The notes beneath the pieces were generated by a model. The model searched no databases, was not told the DNA's origin, and was given only the letters and a program-made list of their open reading frames with translations. Positions 83 through 31,947 of a stretch of DNA of 49,024 nucleotides are shown one piece after another. Position numbers and translations under genes: made by a program. Source of the stretch: Candidatus Roizmanbacteria bacterium RIFCSPHIGHO2_02_FULL_37_13b (GTDB lineage Bacteria > Patescibacteriota > Microgenomatia > UBA1406 > HO2-37-13b); the NCBI GenBank assembly GCA_001789395.1, contig MFZK01000019.1, positions 1 through 49,024 of the forward strand, read 5' to 3'. Position 1 is the first letter of the stretch. Each line of letters opens with the position of its first letter.

Positions 83-106
83 AAAAAAACCTCCCTTTCG
101 GGAGGT
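83..106 (-). terminator. Intrinsic terminator of the aro attenuator
   Basis: A 7-bp stem, ACCTCCC (106-100) with GGGAGGT (95-89), closes a GAAA tetraloop, and the strand continues in a run of seven T (89-83). It lies between the leader peptide and the DAHP synthase start, so it should stop transcription before the enzyme gene unless the antiterminator forms. Confidence 0.9.
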
Positions 107-161
107 CGCGCGCTCTTGGTTTTATTTATTTACAGCGTCAGCAATCCTCCCTTAAGGAAGG
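83..161 (-). promoter_or_regulatory. Aromatic amino acid attenuator ahead of the DAHP synthase gene
   Basis: On the minus strand four blocks lie in order: segment 1 CCTTCC (161-156), segment 2 GGGAGG (151-146), segment 3 CCTCCC (105-100) and segment 4 GGGAGG (95-90). Segments 1:2 form a hairpin with a TTAA loop, 2:3 can form an antiterminator, and 3:4 form the terminator. Leader-peptide codons for Tyr, Trp and Phe (177-157) run into segment 1. A ribosome stalled there would cover segment 1 and release segment 2 to pair with segment 3. The leader stop codon (132-130) lies between segments 2 and 3. This is the classic ribosome-mediated attenuation layout; the mechanism is inferred from complementarity alone. 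Confidence 0.82.
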
Positions 162-204
162 TAAAATAAAACCAATAATTATTTGCTTGACACATTATAT
201 TCAT
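130..204 (-). CDS. Leader peptide of the DAHP synthase attenuator (24 aa, rich in Tyr/Trp/Phe)
   Basis: A 24-codon ORF starts at the ATG at 204 and stops with TAA at 132-130. Its core is NNYWFYFTF: two Tyr, one Trp and three Phe codons within seven codons (177-157), immediately ahead of and running into attenuator segment 1. The tail reads LKGGLLTL. A TATAAT box ends 11 nt before the ATG, so the mRNA would carry almost no 5' leader. Such a dense run of all three aromatic residues is what a sensor of charged tRNA-Tyr, tRNA-Trp and tRNA-Phe needs, and all three amino acids are end products of the DAHP synthase pathway. No other function is expected. A second in-frame ATG at 195 is possible and would not change the aromatic block. 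Confidence 0.85.
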   Translation of the reverse strand: MNIMCQANNYWFYFTFLKGGLLTL

Positions 205-260: not shown

Positions 261-1049
261 TCACACTTTTAAATTGTCAAGAAAATCACTAATCTTTCTC
301 TCCAAATTGTCTCTTCTTGATGAATGAATAATATCTATTATTGCGCTTCCAACCACTGCTATATCCACAATTGGGGCAAGCATTTTTATATGTTCTTTTT
401 TAGAAATACCAAATCCCACAGCAATAGGGATAGAAAAATATTTCCTGAGTCTTTGAAGATAAGATGTAAGATTGGGATCTAATTGATCACTTGCACCTGT
501 TATTCCTTGTCGAGCCGTGCAATATATGAAACCATTGGCAACAGCTGAATTTTTCTTAAGACGATCATCGGTTGATACCGGAGAAATAACTTGTATATTA
601 TGTAATTTATATTTTCGACAAGATGCCAAAAAATGTTCTTCGTTTTCCTCATCTATAGACATGTCTGGAACAATTAGTCCGGAAGCACCCGTAGATTGAG
701 AATCCCGGCAAAATTTTTCGACCCCATATTTAAAAACAGTATTATAATAAGCCATAAATAGAAGCGGTATTGAAACGTGAGAGGACAAATATTCCATTGC
801 TTTAAATGCATCTTTAACTTTAGTGCCATTTTCCAATGATCGTTCAGATGCCCGCATAATCGTCGGTCCATCCGCCAGTGGATCAGAGAAGGGGATCTGC
901 AACTCTACAAAATCCACTCCTTTTTCAGCCATCGTTTTTACTATGTTTATGGTTATTTCTAATGTTGGATAGCCAATAACCACATGCGTCATAAGTCCAA
1001 TTTTATTTACGTTCTTTATTTGTTTAAGTTTTATTTCGAGTTTAGTCAT
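261..1049 (-). CDS. trpA: Tryptophan synthase alpha subunit
   Basis: TrpA cleaves indole-3-glycerol phosphate to indole and glyceraldehyde 3-phosphate and passes indole to TrpB through the alpha-beta tunnel. The 262-residue length is typical. The [16 protein letters not shown] stretch near residue 48 carries the catalytic Glu and Asp; the usual ELGIPFSDP has Gly where this protein has Gln. Later landmarks are [23 protein letters not shown] (phosphate loop region) and PIAVGFGIS. Its ATG overlaps the trpB stop by 4 nt, so translation is probably coupled. It is the last trp gene of the run, with the aro leader region immediately after it. Confidence 0.96.
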
Positions 1050-2260
1050 AAGCCTTCTTTAACTATGTTTTCCATAAATTCATAAAATTTTTTATCTCTA
1101 AATGCTTTAGTAAGGATAAAAATATCTTTATCACCTCTGCCGGAAAGATTAACAACAATAACTTTGTTTTTAGCGAGTTTTGGTGCGGTTTTAATTGAAT
1201 ATGAAACAGCATGTGCTGATTCAAGCGCTGGAATGATTCCTTCAAGCTGGGCAAGTATTTGTACAGCCTTTAATGCTTCCTCATCGGTTACACTGACAAA
1301 TTCTACACGTTTTGTATCATGCAAGTGGCTTAATTCCGGTCCGATACCGGGGTAATCAAGTCCCGCTGAGATGCTATGTGTTTTTTGTAATTGTCCATCA
1401 TTATTTTGTAAAAAGTAGGATTTATATCCCTCGATGATCCCAACACTTCCGTTTGGAAAGCGCGTTGCATGTTCACCGATTTTTTTTCCTCTTCCACCTG
1501 CTTCTACTCCGACAAGATGAACTGATGATTCTTTAATAAATTCTGTAAAAGCACCCATTGCATTACTACCTCCACCAACACAGGCGATAACAACATCAGG
1601 TAATTTATTTTCGGCTTTACTGATTTGTTTCCTTATTTCTTTACCGACGACAGTTTGAAAATCACGATTCATCGTCGGAAACGGATGTGGACCAACTACA
1701 GAGCCAAGTACATAGTGGGTATCTTTTACATTTTCAATCCAATCTTTAATTGCCGCGTTAACAGCATCTTTCAAAGTTCGGCTACCAAATACTACCGGGA
1801 TAACCTTTGCACCGAGCTGTTCCATGAGAAACACATTCGGTCTTTGTCTTTTTATATCAACTTCACCCATGTAAACCGTGCAAGAGAAGCCGAGTTTGGC
1901 CGCTACGGAAGCTGTTGCAACGCCATGCTGACCAGCGCCAGTTTCTGCGATAAGTCGAGTCTTACCCATTCGTTTTGCAATTAAACCTTGACCAATACAA
2001 TGAGTGATTTTATGTGCACCTGTATGGTTAAGCCCTTCGTTTTTAAGATATATTTTTGCACCTGCTAATTTTTCTGTTAAATTTTTTGCAAAAACAAGAG
2101 GCGTAGGTCTACCGGCAAAATTTTGGAGTAAATCAATAAAATCCGAATTGAATTGTTTATCTTTCTTAGCCGAAATATAGACTTTCTCTAATTCCTCCAG
2201 TGCCGGAATTAACATCTCTGGTACATATCTACCACCATATTTTCCAAAATGTCCTTTCAT
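1046..2260 (-). CDS. trpB: Tryptophan synthase beta chain
   Basis: TrpB is the PLP enzyme that joins indole with L-serine to make tryptophan. The 404-residue protein starts [15 protein letters not shown], the usual TrpB N-terminus. It carries the HTGAHKI motif, whose Lys forms the PLP Schiff base, the [11 protein letters not shown] loop with the catalytic Glu, and the phosphate-binding [10 protein letters not shown]. This is the TrpB1 type that partners TrpA, consistent with trpA directly downstream. The start overlaps the end of trpF by 4 nt. Confidence 0.97.
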
Positions 2261-2856
2261 AGTTTTACTGCTTTTGCGTTAGAGATAAAATTAATAATTT
2301 TTTGTTCACTGGGTAGGCTATTTGTTTCGATCCCTGAAGCGACATCAACTCCAATAGGTCTAACAGTTCTGACAACCATGCCAACATTTTCTGGAGTTAA
2401 ACCGCCAGCAATAAAAAGTGGTTGTGATTGCGATAGTAGTCTTGCTTTTTTAGGGTCAACCAGTTTTCCTCTACCTTGATATTTTCTATCAAGAAGAAAA
2501 AAAGAAACATGTTTTGATAATTTGTGGAACTCATTTGAGTCCACCCCGACCATTTTGATAACTTTTGATTTAACATTTTTAATGTACTTGATATTTTCTT
2601 TCCCGTGAAGTTGAACGAGATCTAATGAAAGATAGCCAATTAATTCATTAACGTAACTGAGATCTTGATTTTGAAAGACTCCAACGACTTGAATACTAAC
2701 AGAAATATTTGAAAGAATTGTTTTAGCACTTTTTGGATTAATATATCGTTTTGATTTTGGTATAAAGTTAAACCCCAAAAAATCTGCTCCAGCGGAAACG
2801 GCTATTTTTGCATCGTGAGCTGTTCTAATTCCACAAATTTTTACCTTAACATTCAT
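2257..2856 (-). CDS. trpF: Phosphoribosylanthranilate isomerase
   Basis: TrpF converts phosphoribosylanthranilate to CdRP by an Amadori rearrangement. The protein is 199 residues, a usual TIM-barrel TrpF length. [11 protein letters not shown] at the N-terminus holds the catalytic Cys, GADFLGFNF follows, and the C-terminal half has [12 protein letters not shown] and [10 protein letters not shown], where the catalytic Asp and phosphate site lie. It is a separate gene here, not fused to trpC as in enterobacteria. It overlaps both neighbours by 4 nt, showing a tightly packed operon. Confidence 0.95.
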
Positions 2857-3596
2857 ACATTTTTGAGAGACGAAATATAACTTTTAATATTATTTGTTTT
2901 CATCAATCCCGTTCCAACAAGTACCGCTTTTGCACCCGCCTGTATGTATTTTTTAACATCAGATGTTGTGTTAATTCCCGAAAAGCCAAGCTTGATATAT
3001 TTATCAGGAATTTTTTTTATAAGTGCACAGGCCTTGTCGATATCTATGCTAAATGTTTGTAAGTTCCGGGCGTTAACTGCGATGAAAGAAGTTGTCGACA
3101 TAATTGCTTTTTCAAGATCATCTTTGTCATAGATTTCAACGATTGGTTCAAGACCGATGCTTTGAGCCAGTTCAACGAAAAAAATTAGTTTTTGTTTTGT
3201 CACTATTCGTGCAATAAGAAGTATTGTATCGGCACCATTCACTTTTGATTCATATATTTGATACGGATCAATGATGAAGTCTTTTTGTAAAATAGGGAGT
3301 TTTGTATTTTTTTTTACTTTTTTAAGGAGCTTAATATCCCCATTAAAAAAATTCTTATTGGTAATAACTGAAATTACATCGACTCCAGCTTTTTCATACG
3401 ATCGGGCACGTTTGACTATGTTTTGAGCTTTTCCTAAAATCCCCGCCGAGGGCGATTTAAGTTTTATTTCACCAATCAGAGCAACATCCTGTTTATTAAT
3501 TGTCTTTCTAAATCTATTTTGAGATGTTAGGGTATTTTTTATCTGTTTTAATTCCTTAATTTTATATTCCACGATTTCGTTAAGTATTGTTTGCAT
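2853..3596 (-). CDS. trpC: Indole-3-glycerol phosphate synthase
   Basis: TrpC closes the indole ring of CdRP to give indole-3-glycerol phosphate. The ATG at 3596 gives MQTILNEIVEYKIKEL, the usual TrpC opening, and a 247-residue protein; an upstream in-frame GTG at 3611 is less likely. Motifs include ALIGEIKLKSPSAG (substrate loop with catalytic Lys), LQKDFIIDPYQIYES and GADTILLIARI. The usual N-R-N-L segment reads VNARNL, a small departure. The start lies inside the last 17 nt of trpD. Confidence 0.95.
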   Translation of the reverse strand: MQTILNEIVEYKIKELKQIKNTLTSQNRFRKTINKQDVALIGEIKLKSPSAGILGKAQNIVKRARSYEKAGVDVISVITNKNFFNGDIKLLKKVKKNTKLPILQKDFIIDPYQIYESKVNGADTILLIARIVTKQKLIFFVELAQSIGLEPIVEIYDKDDLEKAIMSTTSFIAVNARNLQTFSIDIDKACALIKKIPDKYIKLGFSGINTTSDVKKYIQAGAKAVLVGTGLMKTNNIKSYISSLKNV

Positions 3597-4602
3597 ATTT
3601 TTGCGTCTCACGAATTAAATTTTGTAAAACTAATTGAGCTTTCCCACTATCAATAGATTCTTCAGCACATTTTATTCCAATTACAATAGTTTTGACGGCT
3701 CCTGCAATATATAAAGCACAGGCGCTATTTAAGACTACAATATCTCGCCTCGGGCCTTTTTTACCATTTAAAATTACTCGTATATGAGCGGCGTTTTCAT
3801 CTACAGTTCCTCCCCTAATTTCTTTCAATGAATATTTTATGAAGCCATAATCTGCAGGATTGATGTTAAATTTTTTTACAGAATTATTTTTTACCTCAAA
3901 GATCAATGTTTTTGATGAGATACTTATTTCATCCAAGCCGTCTTGGCTTGTAACAATAAGAAGATGTTTGTAATTAAGATATCTTCCGACATCTGCTAAC
4001 TTTTCCGCAATCTTTACACTTGGTACGCCGATAAGTTGTTTTTTTACAGATGCTGGATTTGTAAATGGTCCGAGAAAGTTAAAAATTGTTTTTGTCTTTA
4101 ATTCTTTTCGAACGCTAACCAGATTTTTCATAGCCGGATGAAATAGGGGAGCGAATAAAAAAACCATCCCTACTTTATTAAAAACACTTTCTGCATGTTT
4201 AGGAGATAATTGTAAATTTATACCTAAATGTTCTAGTACATCGGCGCTTCCACATTTGCTACTCGCGGCTCGGTTACCATGTTTTACAACTTTAACTCCT
4301 GCTCCTGCGATGACAAACGCAACAGCTGTTGAGATGTTGAAAGTTCCACTTCCATCTCCGCCTGTACCGCATACGTCTATAGCACCAGTTGCTTTTACAT
4401 TAATCATGTTTTTTCTCATCGTTTTAATAAATCCAACGATTTCTTTAGAAGATTCTCCTTTCATCCGAAGAGCTACAAGAATGGCTCCAATTTGGGCAGG
4501 TGAAAGTGCACCTTTTATGACATCATTGAGAAACAATTGAGTTTCTTCAGCTAATAAGTCTTGCTTTTTTATTATTTTATTTAATATGTATGTTGTGTCC
4601 AT
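3580..4602 (-). CDS. trpD: Anthranilate phosphoribosyltransferase
   Basis: TrpD transfers phosphoribose from PRPP to anthranilate. The 340-residue length matches the stand-alone form. The PRPP/Mg site VCGTGGDGSGTFNIST and the KHGNRAASSKCGSADVLE stretch are fully recognisable, and FLFAPLFHPAMK and FNFLGPFTNPA are also typical. TrpG is encoded separately just upstream, with a 2-nt gap, so there is no TrpGD fusion. Confidence 0.97.
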   Translation of the reverse strand: MDTTYILNKIIKKQDLLAEETQLFLNDVIKGALSPAQIGAILVALRMKGESSKEIVGFIKTMRKNMINVKATGAIDVCGTGGDGSGTFNISTAVAFVIAGAGVKVVKHGNRAASSKCGSADVLEHLGINLQLSPKHAESVFNKVGMVFLFAPLFHPAMKNLVSVRKELKTKTIFNFLGPFTNPASVKKQLIGVPSVKIAEKLADVGRYLNYKHLLIVTSQDGLDEISISSKTLIFEVKNNSVKKFNINPADYGFIKYSLKEIRGGTVDENAAHIRVILNGKKGPRRDIVVLNSACALYIAGAVKTIVIGIKCAEESIDSGKAQLVLQNLIRETQKYANNT

Positions 4603-4604
4603 AA

Positions 4605-5207
4605 TTACTTTTTTTTCATTAAAAAATTTGTTAATATCAATTTTCCTCCATCTGTAGCGAAAGACTCCGGGTGAAACTGTACTCCCTCTATTGGGTATAT
4701 AAGATGTCTTAAACCCATGATTTCTTTTGTATCATTGGATACAGCAGTGATCTTTAAACAATTGGGTAATGTTTTTTTTTCTGCAATGAGCGAATGGTAT
4801 CGCATAACTTCTAGATTCTGAGGCAGGCCGGTAAAAATTCCTTTTTCATCATGTTGGATAATGCTAGTTTTTCCATGCATCGGTTGTTTTGCCCGAACTA
4901 CTTTTCCCCCAAAATAATGAGCCATACCTTGCATACCCAAACATACTCCCAAAACCGGAGTTTCTTTACCAACGTTAGTTAGAACTTTTGCACATACACC
5001 AAAATATGCTAAGTCACTAGGATTTCCAGGACCAGGAGAAATAATAATTTTGTCATATCGTCTTTTTTTTATTTCTTTGATAGTAATTTCATCATTTCTG
5101 ACTACATTTAGTATGAATTTTTTTCCTTCATCGGTAAGAATTTCGCCGACGTACTGATAAAGATTGAACGTAAAAGAATCGTAGTTGTCTATTATTAATA
5201 TTTTCAT
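4605..5207 (-). CDS. trpG: Anthranilate synthase component II, glutamine amidotransferase
   Basis: TrpG supplies ammonia from glutamine to TrpE. The 200-residue class I amidotransferase has LIIDNYDSFTFNLYQY at the start, the oxyanion segment IISPGPGNP, the nucleophile Cys in GVCLGMQGMAHYFGG, and the His-Glu pair in GVQFHPESFAT. PabA proteins look very similar, but the position between trpE and trpD favours TrpG; dual use with a PabB elsewhere cannot be excluded. The start overlaps the trpE stop by 4 nt. Confidence 0.95.
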   Translation of the reverse strand: MKILIIDNYDSFTFNLYQYVGEILTDEGKKFILNVVRNDEITIKEIKKRRYDKIIISPGPGNPSDLAYFGVCAKVLTNVGKETPVLGVCLGMQGMAHYFGGKVVRAKQPMHGKTSIIQHDEKGIFTGLPQNLEVMRYHSLIAEKKTLPNCLKITAVSNDTKEIMGLRHLIYPIEGVQFHPESFATDGGKLILTNFLMKKK

Positions 5208-6574
5208 GTTTTTTTATACCTGACTGTCGACAGGCAGGCCTCTCTCATCGCAGCAAACTTGCTTTGAATTTCATCATATTCCTTCTCAGGTACCGAATCA
5301 TAGACAATACCTCCGCTTGTTTGGGCGTATGCATATTCATCTGAAATAAAAAGAGATCTGAGTGCAAGTGCGAAAGTGCAATCACCATTAAACCCAAAAT
5401 GACCAACGCCTCCTCCATATGGACCCCGCGGCATAGTCTCATTTGAGTTAATAATCTTAATTGTTTCTACTTTCGGAGTCCCACAGACTGTCCCCATGGG
5501 AAAATTGCAAGAAAGACCGGAAAACATGTCCTCTCCCGGACGGATTAATCCAACGATTTCACTTGAGATATGTTGAACATGGCTAAATTTCTTTATCGTC
5601 ATTAAATCTCTAATTTTAACTGTGCCAAATTTGGCCACTCTCCCAATATCATTTCTATGTAAATCTACAATCATATTATGTTCTGCTCTCTCTTTTGGAT
5701 CATTAAGGAGAGTTCGTGCAAGCATCTGATCCTCTAATTCATTTTTACCTCTTAAAATTGTGCCGGCTAATGGTCGTATAGTCATTTCTCCGTTTCGAAG
5801 TGAAAAAAGAAGCTCTGGACTAGCGCCGATAATTTTTTTATTGCCGAATTTAAGATAATACATAAATGGTGACGGGTTAAGAGTCCTTAGTTTTTGATAT
5901 ATTTTCAATGAATCCCCACTGATTCTATATTCTGTTTTAAAACCTACTTCGCATTGAAAAGTATTACCTGCTCTTATATGCACTTTTACTCTTTCAACCA
6001 TTTTTGCATGTTCTTTTTTGGTTAAGTCATCTTTAATAAAATTCACCTTTAATGATCTCTCTTTATATTTAATCTTCATGGCTTTTTTTAAAATATCGCT
6101 TCTGTCAGTATCGTAATAGAAGTAGAAAAGTTCGTTTGTTAGTTTATCGATTATCAATCCATCGGTAAATACTCCAAACATAAATTGATCAAAACGGTCA
6201 TGGATTTTAATATTCAGACTAGGTTCAAAATAGTTTACTGCTTCATAGCTAAGATAACCTACAAGTCCTCCAGCGTAGTTTCTAGTCAGAGTTGTTGGAG
6301 GCATAATTTCCCGTAATGTTAAATAGGGATTTTTTACTTGATAGATTTCACCATCAATTATTAAGTTATTTTTTCGGGCTGAAATAATATGTATCGGATC
6401 AAATCCAATAATTGAATGTCGAGAGAATTTTCCTTCTTCTCCAAGAGACTCAAATATAAAACATGTATTAAACAACCGCTCTATTTTTTGAAATAGTTTA
6501 AAAAAATCTAGGTTGTTTGCCAGTTTAATCATGACCGGTTTTTGCCTAATTGTAATTTTAGGTAACTTTTTCAT
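5204..6574 (-). CDS. trpE: Anthranilate synthase component I
   Basis: TrpE makes anthranilate from chorismate with ammonia from TrpG, the committed tryptophan step. From the ATG at 6574 the protein is 456 residues; an in-frame TTG at 6586 lies directly behind the terminator U-tract and is less likely. Catalytic-domain motifs are present: RPLAGTILRG, VDLHRNDIGRVA, GTVCGTPKVE, GPYGGGVGHFG and SVPEKEYDEIQSKF. The N-terminal FESLGEEGKFSRHSIIG resembles the segment that binds feedback tryptophan in other TrpE proteins, so allosteric control is plausible. It lies just after the trp attenuator. Confidence 0.96.
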   Translation of the reverse strand: MKKLPKITIRQKPVMIKLANNLDFFKLFQKIERLFNTCFIFESLGEEGKFSRHSIIGFDPIHIISARKNNLIIDGEIYQVKNPYLTLREIMPPTTLTRNYAGGLVGYLSYEAVNYFEPSLNIKIHDRFDQFMFGVFTDGLIIDKLTNELFYFYYDTDRSDILKKAMKIKYKERSLKVNFIKDDLTKKEHAKMVERVKVHIRAGNTFQCEVGFKTEYRISGDSLKIYQKLRTLNPSPFMYYLKFGNKKIIGASPELLFSLRNGEMTIRPLAGTILRGKNELEDQMLARTLLNDPKERAEHNMIVDLHRNDIGRVAKFGTVKIRDLMTIKKFSHVQHISSEIVGLIRPGEDMFSGLSCNFPMGTVCGTPKVETIKIINSNETMPRGPYGGGVGHFGFNGDCTFALALRSLFISDEYAYAQTSGGIVYDSVPEKEYDEIQSKFAAMREACLSTVRYKKT

Positions 6575-6587
6575 AAGATTTTTCAAT

Positions 6588-6613
6588 AAAAAAAACCTCC
6601 CGATTTGGGAGGT
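6588..6613 (-). terminator. Intrinsic terminator of the trp attenuator
   Basis: The stem ACCTCCC (6613-6607) pairs with GGGAGGT (6601-6595) across a five-base AAATC loop and runs straight into eight T residues (6595-6588), 13 nt before the trpE ATG. Confidence 0.9.
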
Positions 6614-6674
6614 GGATTTAATTAAATTTTAATTATTAATAATAATTCGCCTCCCAAAATGGAGAGGCTCGCCA
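6588..6674 (-). promoter_or_regulatory. trp operon attenuator
   Basis: Between trpR and trpE the minus strand holds segment 1 GCCTCTCC (6668-6661), segment 2 GGGAGGC (6655-6649), segment 3 ACCTCCC (6613-6607) and segment 4 GGGAGGT (6601-6595). Segments 1:2 pair over 7 bp with one bulged T. Segment 2 extended to TTTGGGAGG (6658-6650) pairs with CCTCCCAAA (6612-6604) over 9 bp as an antiterminator, and 3:4 is the terminator. The first leader Trp codon (6674-6672) lies 3 nt before segment 1, so a ribosome stalled there would mask segment 1 and favour 2:3. The second Trp codon (6656-6654) enters segment 2. Confidence 0.85.
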
Positions 6675-6704
6675 CAAAAAATTATTTGATTTTTTTTTAA
6701 ACAT
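6636..6704 (-). CDS. trpL: trp leader peptide (22 aa, two Trp codons)
   Basis: A 22-codon ORF starts at the ATG at 6704, which overlaps the last codons of trpR in another frame, and ends with TAA at 6638-6636. It begins MFKKKSNNFLW and ends RASPFWEANYY, with Trp at codons 11 and 17, Phe at 2, 9 and 16, and a final Tyr-Tyr. The upstream GGAAG within trpR, 8 nt before the ATG, could serve as ribosome binding site. Its place across attenuator segments 1 and 2 and its Trp codons indicate a sensing role and no separate product function. I named it by analogy to enterobacterial trpL; the sequence itself is not homologous in any way I can show. Confidence 0.85.
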   Translation of the reverse strand: MFKKKSNNFLWRASPFWEANYY

Positions 6705-28127: not shown

Positions 28128-28143
28128 TATTATTATTTTTTTT

Positions 28144-28311
28144 GAAGCTGGGTATTAGCCATTTTCCGATCAAATCGGAAGAGAAGGTTAGTTTTTATAC
28201 GGGAACACTGTGTGAATCAGTGACTGTGCCGCAGCGGTTAACCCGAACAAATTTTCGTCAAGAAAATTTGCGCGGGTAAAGTCCGAAGACCGACCCAACT
28301 TCCATTTTTTT
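28144..28311 (+). ncRNA. Cobalamin riboswitch
   Basis: The core is clear: GGGAACACTG, TGTGAATC, GTGCCGCAGCGG (the B12 box, a variant of the usual GCCACTG) and GTCCGAAGACC, in the order of the cobalamin aptamer. GAAGCTGGGT (28144-28153) pairs with ACCCAACTTC (28293-28302), one mismatch in ten, as the closing P1 helix. A run of seven T (28305-28311) starts 2 nt after P1, so the ligand-stabilised P1 may act as the terminator arm. A weak TCCC/GGGA hairpin (28313-28326) sits ahead of the start codon. The controlled gene is at 28332. Whether it reads adenosyl- or methylcobalamin is not decided. Confidence 0.88.
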
Positions 28312-28331
28312 GTCCCCGAGCAGGGAAAATT

Positions 28332-31546: not shown

Positions 31547-31556
31547 GTAATCAAAC

Positions 31557-31642
31557 TTATGGGGAGCTTGTTAAATCAGGCTGAGATTCCCGAAATTATC
31601 GGGTGACCCAATGAACCTGTACGGATAATGCCGTCGGAGGGA
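31557..31642 (+). ncRNA. TPP riboswitch (THI element)
   Basis: The conserved thi-box parts appear in order: GGGGAGC, CAGGCTGAGATTCCCG, GGGTGACCC, AATGAACCTGT, GGATAATGCC and GTCGGAGGGAA. Both the pyrimidine-sensor (CTGAGA) and pyrophosphate-sensor helices are recognisable. GGAGGG (31636-31641) in the last conserved strand is also the ribosome binding site 6 nt ahead of the ATG at 31648. No terminator is seen, so TPP binding should block translation. It controls the thiamine transport genes that follow. Confidence 0.95.
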
Positions 31643-31647
31643 AAAAT

Positions 31648-31947
31648 ATGCCAAACGCTTCAATTGCTTTACAAATTCTACCAACTGTCAAAAATACCCG
31701 TGATTCATGGAAAATTATTGATAAAGTAATCGCGTTTATTAAAAAATCGGGCGTGAACTTTGAAGTTGGGCCGATGGAAACAACCATGGAAGGCGATCTT
31801 GATAAACTGCTTCAAATTGTCAATGCAGCACAAAAACTAGCTATTGAACATGGTTCATCTGGAGTATTTTCGAATGTCAAGATTATCTATAATCCAAAAG
31901 GGATTGCATCAATGAAGAAGAAAGTCACAAAACACCGAGAAAAATAA
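31648..31947 (+). CDS. MTH1187/YkoF-like thiamine-binding protein
   Basis: The 99-residue protein matches the DUF77 family: ALQILPTVKNTRDSWKIIDK, FEVGPMETTMEGDLDKLLQI and HGSSGVFSNVKIIYNP. Members form tetramers and bind thiamine or a related pyrimidine; they are often the first gene of thiamine transporter operons. The TPP riboswitch directly upstream agrees. It likely buffers or delivers thiamine or hydroxymethylpyrimidine in the cytosol. Confidence 0.9.
   Translation: MPNASIALQILPTVKNTRDSWKIIDKVIAFIKKSGVNFEVGPMETTMEGDLDKLLQIVNAAQKLAIEHGSSGVFSNVKIIYNPKGIASMKKKVTKHREK

Follow-up and report, generated by a model that had tools for sequence, protein, structure and literature searches.

A putative Tyr-Trp-Phe attenuator ahead of DAHP synthase, conserved among relatives in the Patescibacteria

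The DAHP synthase gene of the window, the whole analysed stretch of 49,024 nucleotides, is preceded by an attenuator which, judged by its sequence and by comparison with relatives, is real, widely conserved and of the classical mode of working. We hold with considerable confidence that it is a ribosome-mediated transcription attenuator controlling DAHP synthase and, along with it, the operon genes for shikimate, Phe and Tyr synthesis. Because nearly every relative making DAHP synthase carries the same switch, the leader very probably does sense all three end products. The parts of the element, their conservation, the coevolution of its pairing segments and the match between the codon run and the switch point emerge from the sequences compared, while translation, stalling and the response to each of the three amino acids are inferred.

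Structure of the Leader Region

Direct reading of the minus strand confirmed the coordinates and sequences of the original prediction, which had placed a 24-codon aromatic leader on segment 1 of a four-segment attenuator in the gap between trpA and DAHP synthase. The leader and the terminator lie on this strand between the end of trpA at 261 and the DAHP synthase ATG at 67. The leader ORF, MNIMCQANNYWFYFTFLKGGLLTL, occupies 204-130 (minus strand; 24 codons and TAA, with the ATG at 204 and the stop codon at 132-130) and overlaps segments 1 and 2. A short ORF with codons for the products of the controlled pathway is present, as in ribosome-mediated attenuators. The control codons taken from stall modelling, Y10, W11, F12, Y13 and F14, span 163-177 (minus), and F16 follows at 159-157. 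Segment 1 (CCTTCC, 161-156, minus) lies inside the leader ORF and pairs with segment 2 (GGGAGG, 151-146, minus, likewise inside the ORF) before segment 3 is made, and this 1:2 domain is extended by an anti-run segment, AAATAAAACCAA (116-127, minus), which pairs with the aromatic codons TTGGTTTTATTT (175-164). Segment 3 (CCTCCC, 105-100, minus) belongs to the 5' arm of the terminator, ACCTCCC (106-100), and segment 4 (GGGAGG, 95-90, minus) to its 3' arm, GGGAGGT (95-89), after which a T-tract runs to 82. Together they form an intrinsic terminator upstream of the structural gene (106-82, minus; loop GAAA, U-tract) with a folding energy of -14.2 kcal/mol when taken alone.

The folding of the leader region gave a z of -3.75, and a leader with a terminator arose by chance in 1 of 2000 dinucleotide shuffles of 40-262 under the rule that was also applied to the relatives. 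The codon run TWYTGGTWYTWYTWYRCC occurs once in the genome, at the leader site; when a single codon-run pattern was used as a regulon search, most of the matches examined in other genomes lay in unrelated reading frames. About 12 nt downstream of segment 2, at window 145-129 (minus), stands the block GYURACGYUGUAAA, which in relatives lies partly beyond the stop codon; it looks good by eye in about ten relatives and is possibly an RNA-polymerase pause site.

Promoter and Start of the Leader

Between trpA and the leader a promoter-like site was observed at 245-216 (minus), with TTGACT at 245-240, a spacing of 18 nt and TATAAT at 221-216, its -10 box ending 11 nt ahead of the leader ATG. A promoter was predicted for 39 leaders, and in 30 of these the distance from the predicted -10 box to the start codon is 6-15 nt. 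As transcription usually starts 6-8 nt downstream of the -10 box, the 5' end of the RNA would lie a few bases from the leader ATG. No Shine-Dalgarno sequence was seen ahead of the leader ORF of the window, whereas the second leaders of two tandem pairs (G042b and G046b), which are devoid of such a promoter, do have one (TAGGAGGA and AAAGGAAA), a difference that favours leaderless initiation. On these sequence features, the leader ORF is probably leaderless.

Operon Context

The window corresponds to contig C19 of a genome of 1.16 Mb. It starts inside DAHP synthase, whose 5' end (MKNLKKISRDKPMIIAGPCSAE..., 1-67, minus), recognised by a family match, is cut at the contig end. Contig C10 (locus L012) ends in the remainder of the gene and has a 49-base identical overlap with the window start, which makes it very likely that the operon continues into the aro block found there, where DAHP synthase is followed by aroB, an aroA-shikimate kinase fusion, aroE, aroD, aroC, chorismate mutase and, after the latter, a prephenate dehydrogenase/prephenate dehydratase fusion (TyrA/PheA). 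The join is supported by the relatives G392, G271 and G358, in which the trp genes and then the aro block stand on single contigs.

Upstream lies the trpEGDCFBA operon (261-6586, minus), preceded by trpR, and the trpR-trpE gap harbors a second attenuator (6588-6704, minus) with the leader MFKKKSNNFLWRASPFWEANYY at 6704-6636, its ATG overlapping the end of trpR, and a terminator with a U-tract at 6613-6595. This one is a Trp attenuator, and its hairpins exhibit the same GGGAGG/CCTCCC motifs as the attenuator of DAHP synthase. From this operon context, the genes under the DAHP synthase leader are probably those of the common pathway and of the Phe/Tyr branch, with trpE having its own Trp leader. 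Elsewhere in the window, cobalamin and TPP riboswitches were detected above the Rfam gathering scores at 28133-28312 and 31550-31659 (plus).

Modelling of Ribosome Stalling

Stalling was modelled by setting the ribosome A site at each codon, blocking the covered bases and computing the probability of the terminator, P(terminator), in a thermodynamic model at equilibrium. In the window P(terminator) was 0-0.2 at Y10, W11, F12 and Y13, rose to 0.8 at F14 and stayed at 1.0 between F16 and the stop codon, a pattern that was stable for footprint edges from +9 to +15, and within this thermodynamic model the control codons are thus placed for a switch between stall and stop. The proposal that one peptide reads Tyr, Trp and Phe is supported by the model, as Y10, W11, F12 and Y13 are all predicted inside the antiterminating zone. 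The last antiterminating codon precedes the last core aromatic codon by no more than 4 codons in 33 of 36 leaders, a geometry reached by a mean of 12.1 and a maximum of 22 leaders in 5000 random placements.

Among the 34 modelled Microgenomatia leaders, P(terminator) at the stop-codon position was at least 0.8 in 30, and stalls were antiterminating for Tyr in 27 of 34, for Trp in 16 of 21 and for Phe in 30 of 34. In 11 of the 34, at least one aromatic amino acid is present in the leader without antitermination at a threshold of 0.5, and the close relative G380 has no codon with P(terminator) below 0.5. Under the equilibrium model many leaders also show antitermination when the ribosome stalls at an early codon; the model by itself thus leaves selectivity unexplained, and this must come from which codons are slow. 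The free RNA at equilibrium favours a nested fold of 1:4 and 2:3, so that termination would need the ribosome or co-transcriptional 1:2 folding.

The proposed mechanism would begin at the promoter between trpA and the leader, giving an RNA with the leader ORF a few bases from its 5' end. With charged tRNA-Tyr, -Trp and -Phe plentiful, the ribosome would move to the stop codon and keep segment 2 off segment 3, and with segment 2 blocked, segments 3 and 4 would form the terminator. If any one of the aromatic amino acids were scarce, the ribosome would wait at Y10, W11, F12 or Y13 and cover segment 1, whereupon segments 2 and 3 would pair and transcription would read on into DAHP synthase; one peptide would thereby report on all three end products.

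Distribution among Relatives

The suggestion that the genome is Patescibacteria-like was borne out by its named close relatives, Levyibacteriota, Roizmanbacteria and Microgenomates, from which the class for comparison, Microgenomatia, was also named. An aromatic-run leader with a terminator ahead of DAHP synthase was found in 33 of the 34 Microgenomatia genomes with the enzyme, the source genome included, the sole exception being G337, in which DAHP synthase is part of a long fused reading frame; the leader is also carried by two genomes found subsequently. In all 16 first relatives, which were read by hand, DAHP synthase is preceded by an aromatic-run leader (standing in G380 before an intervening two-gene insertion), and in G263 the terminator was seen too; examples are MNINRSANYYWFYFTPRREVS, MNKVQTNYFWFYFTTIMGVG, MNIQSQVNYFWFYFATRREVS and MNRAFYFWFYFTPYSGGVLVA. 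Distant DAHP synthases of family f25, about 31-35% identical, are likewise preceded by a leader. When this same rule was applied to 442 other upstream regions of related genomes, 4 scored, three of which appear to be real leaders, namely G380's own and two ahead of pheS. The original prediction had staked itself on conservation of the leader and of its pairing in relatives, and it came through clearly, with 33 of 34 genomes and a coevolving 2:3 pairing.

These comparisons bear on a simpler account, in which the hairpin is the terminator of the trp operon, the ORF over it is there by chance and DAHP synthase is supplied separately and constitutively. The hairpin does come after trpA, where a terminator would be unremarkable; against this, the leader and terminator recur, far above background, at DAHP synthase genes with no trpA before them (after rplT or unrelated genes), and the alternative pairing coevolves. 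We consider this account extremely improbable, and in our judgement a chance ORF over a trp terminator is ruled out by the comparison with relatives.

Outside the class, 13 of the 29 Patescibacteria loci of a phylum sample passed the strict rule, and the leader of one of them (L206) is the same as that of the named REEB54 locus. Similar aromatic leaders were also observed in Vampirovibrio (L070 and L072) and in a Chlamydiae bin (L076), where the DAHP synthase is near the Patescibacteria type, and gene transfer or mis-binning is possible for these cases. On balance, and tentatively, we lean towards a phylum-wide Patescibacteria family in which a leaderless leader peptide would combine the supply signals of Tyr, Trp and Phe in one attenuator acting on the first pathway step, the Trp codon being retained in producers of Trp and often lost in the others, and the element being common to unrelated DAHP synthase types and to the Vampirovibrio and Chlamydiae bins.

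Several further arrangements were recorded. Three genomes of one genus without true trpB (L060, L061 and L066) have tandem attenuators ahead of DAHP synthase, each with its own aromatic leader and with runs devoid of Trp, and in L058, L063 and L064 the leader and DAHP synthase stand between infC-rpmI-rplT and pheST. Candidate aromatic leaders ahead of DAHP synthase were seen in Ktedonobacter (NNSYFYYWFSPPA), Ignavibacteriales, Planctomycetota and Desulfobacterales (L139, L147, L128, L112, L134 and L121), that of L121 (Deltaproteobacteria) being a Trp run. Leader ORFs with Phe, Phe/Tyr or Phe/Trp/Tyr were observed ahead of pheS in L162, L171 and L167; a common origin with pheST leaders was considered, and only a few of the 30 sampled pheS genes have a leader by the same rule.

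Coevolution of the Alternative Pairings

Covariation was tested by duplex permutation, because parts of the segments came out misaligned when twelve leaders were aligned with MAFFT. Across the family the 2:3 duplex of a leader with its own partner reached -15.6 kcal/mol against -11.9 kcal/mol for crossed partners (0 of 20,000 permutations), and the pairing of the aromatic run with its own anti-run segment beat crossed pairing in 20,000 of 20,000 permutations, results which are strong and, as permutation ignores shared ancestry, are to be read as such and not as formal covariation p-values. A mutually exclusive antiterminator with conserved pairing is thus indicated by the own and crossed 2:3 duplexes. 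The 2:3 motifs switch among relatives between GGAGG:CCUCC, GGCGG:CCGCC and GGGG:CCCC, and in L052 the run TTGGTTCTATTTT pairs with the anti-run AAAATAGAGCCAA.

That the aromatic codons pair with a downstream segment could also be expected of a riboswitch or T-box binding a metabolite or a tRNA, the U-rich run then being structural, and T-box-like sequences do stand ahead of trpE in some relatives. Such an RNA would not explain why the reading frame is preserved from the start codon through into the run, with C/T variation at the third position, nor why the position of the run fits the ribosome footprint, and we regard it as highly improbable. In the core windows, third codon positions carried C in 46 cases, against 0 at position 1 and 6 at position 2, a bias in keeping with synonymous drift, although the windows had been selected for aromatic codons. 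No Rfam match to a riboswitch or T-box was obtained in the leader or in the leaders of relatives. The T-box-like sequences (AAGGTGGCACCGCC ... GGCCCTTGTTAAATC) belong to L180-L185, and the sequences upstream of trpE in these loci gave no Rfam T-box at the gathering score.

The Trp Codon and the trp Genes

The comparative record also bears on whether the attenuator, taken as ribosome-mediated, reads three amino acids or fewer. Among class genomes, a Trp codon occurs in the leader of 18 of the 19 that have trpB and of 5 of the 15 that lack it (Fisher p = 0.0002); with the phylum sample added the figures are 23 of 25 and 10 of 23, respectively (p = 0.0004). G183, which has a trpB with internal stops and no leader Trp, was left out of these counts, and G042, with one Trp after the run, was scored as lacking Trp; some trpB absences may be false, as the genomes are incomplete. 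On independent pairs the link kept its direction (about 3.3 for and 1.0 against), with low power and p of about 0.6, which is not significant.

A sensor of one or two aromatics only (Phe, or Phe and Tyr), with the Trp codon tolerated and not read, is the less probable reading, to which we assign a modest chance. It is favoured by the composition of the leaders, in which F (18%) and Y (11%) dominate over W (3%), by several genomes without trpB that keep the leader W, and by the best Rfam family match, Phe_leader (RF01859; 38.1 bits over the full model, E = 3e-5), which falls below the gathering cut-off of 55 and so does not place the leader in that family; Trp_leader (RF00513) scored 21.9 against a gathering score of 41 bits and gives no assignment either. 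The Phe-Tyr-Phe leader AroR of C. glutamicum, the nearest case with a tested response, responds to Phe only (PMC11802643) and points the same way. On the other side, W11 is predicted within the antiterminating zone in the window, W is found in nearly all class genomes with trpB and is absent from most without, and Trp shares the DAHP synthase step.

Significance and Comparison with Known Systems

Hardly any work has addressed how Patescibacteria regulate their genes, and the present element stands at nearly every DAHP synthase of a whole class. Its design, with one peptide for three end products and probably leaderless, is testable in E. coli without culturing the organism and could show directly whether three tRNAs can be read by a single attenuator. 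The relatives, compared with one another, document how sensor codons change with the loss of pathways.

Trp leaders (trpL) and Phe leaders (pheA and pheST) are familiar, and we know of no combined Tyr/Trp/Phe leader on DAHP synthase in a Patescibacteria-like genome. The E. coli pheA leader (RF01859) is similar in having a peptide leader with a Phe run and alternative hairpins, and differs in that it reads Phe only and controls pheA. In E. coli, pheM presumably fills the slot after infC-rpmI-rplT with pheST downstream, which matches the slot of the leader in L058, L063 and L064; unlike pheM-pheST, the leaders described here have DAHP synthase downstream, and most sampled pheS genes are without such a leader. 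The ilvGMEDA and thr leaders of E. coli are like the present one in that one peptide reads more than one end product, these being branched-chain amino acids or Thr/Ile, in contrast to the aromatics here.

A literature search, with subscription journals mostly outside its reach, found no attenuator described in Patescibacteria and, within the same scope, none among the known or proposed DAHP synthase attenuators that combines Tyr, Trp and Phe. A candidate aroF attenuator has been proposed in Shewanella. The uORFC-13-1 motif of Acholeplasma aroF (PMC8632094) is a candidate uORF with a promoter and a terminator ahead of DAHP synthase, and shares with the present leader this arrangement and a Phe codon; peculiar to it are a ribosome-binding site, at least one Phe codon and occurrence in one genus, with no multi-aromatic run described.

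The closest known system is the aroR-aroF attenuator of C. glutamicum (Neshat 2014, via PMC11802643 and PMC4046766), whose Phe-Tyr-Phe leader responds to Phe and not to Tyr. The novelty originally claimed accordingly holds for the combination of Tyr, Trp and Phe and does not extend to DAHP synthase attenuators as such, which were already known or proposed in AroR and uORFC-13-1; what appears new, provisionally, is the combination, the phylum and probably the leaderless design. Like AroR, the leader of the window is an aromatic leader with attenuation directly ahead of DAHP synthase and works like the AroR type, and both C. glutamicum and the source genome have a Trp attenuator ahead of trpE. 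Unlike AroR, which is described from a distant phylum as Phe-Tyr-Phe with no Trp, it holds Tyr, Trp and Phe together.
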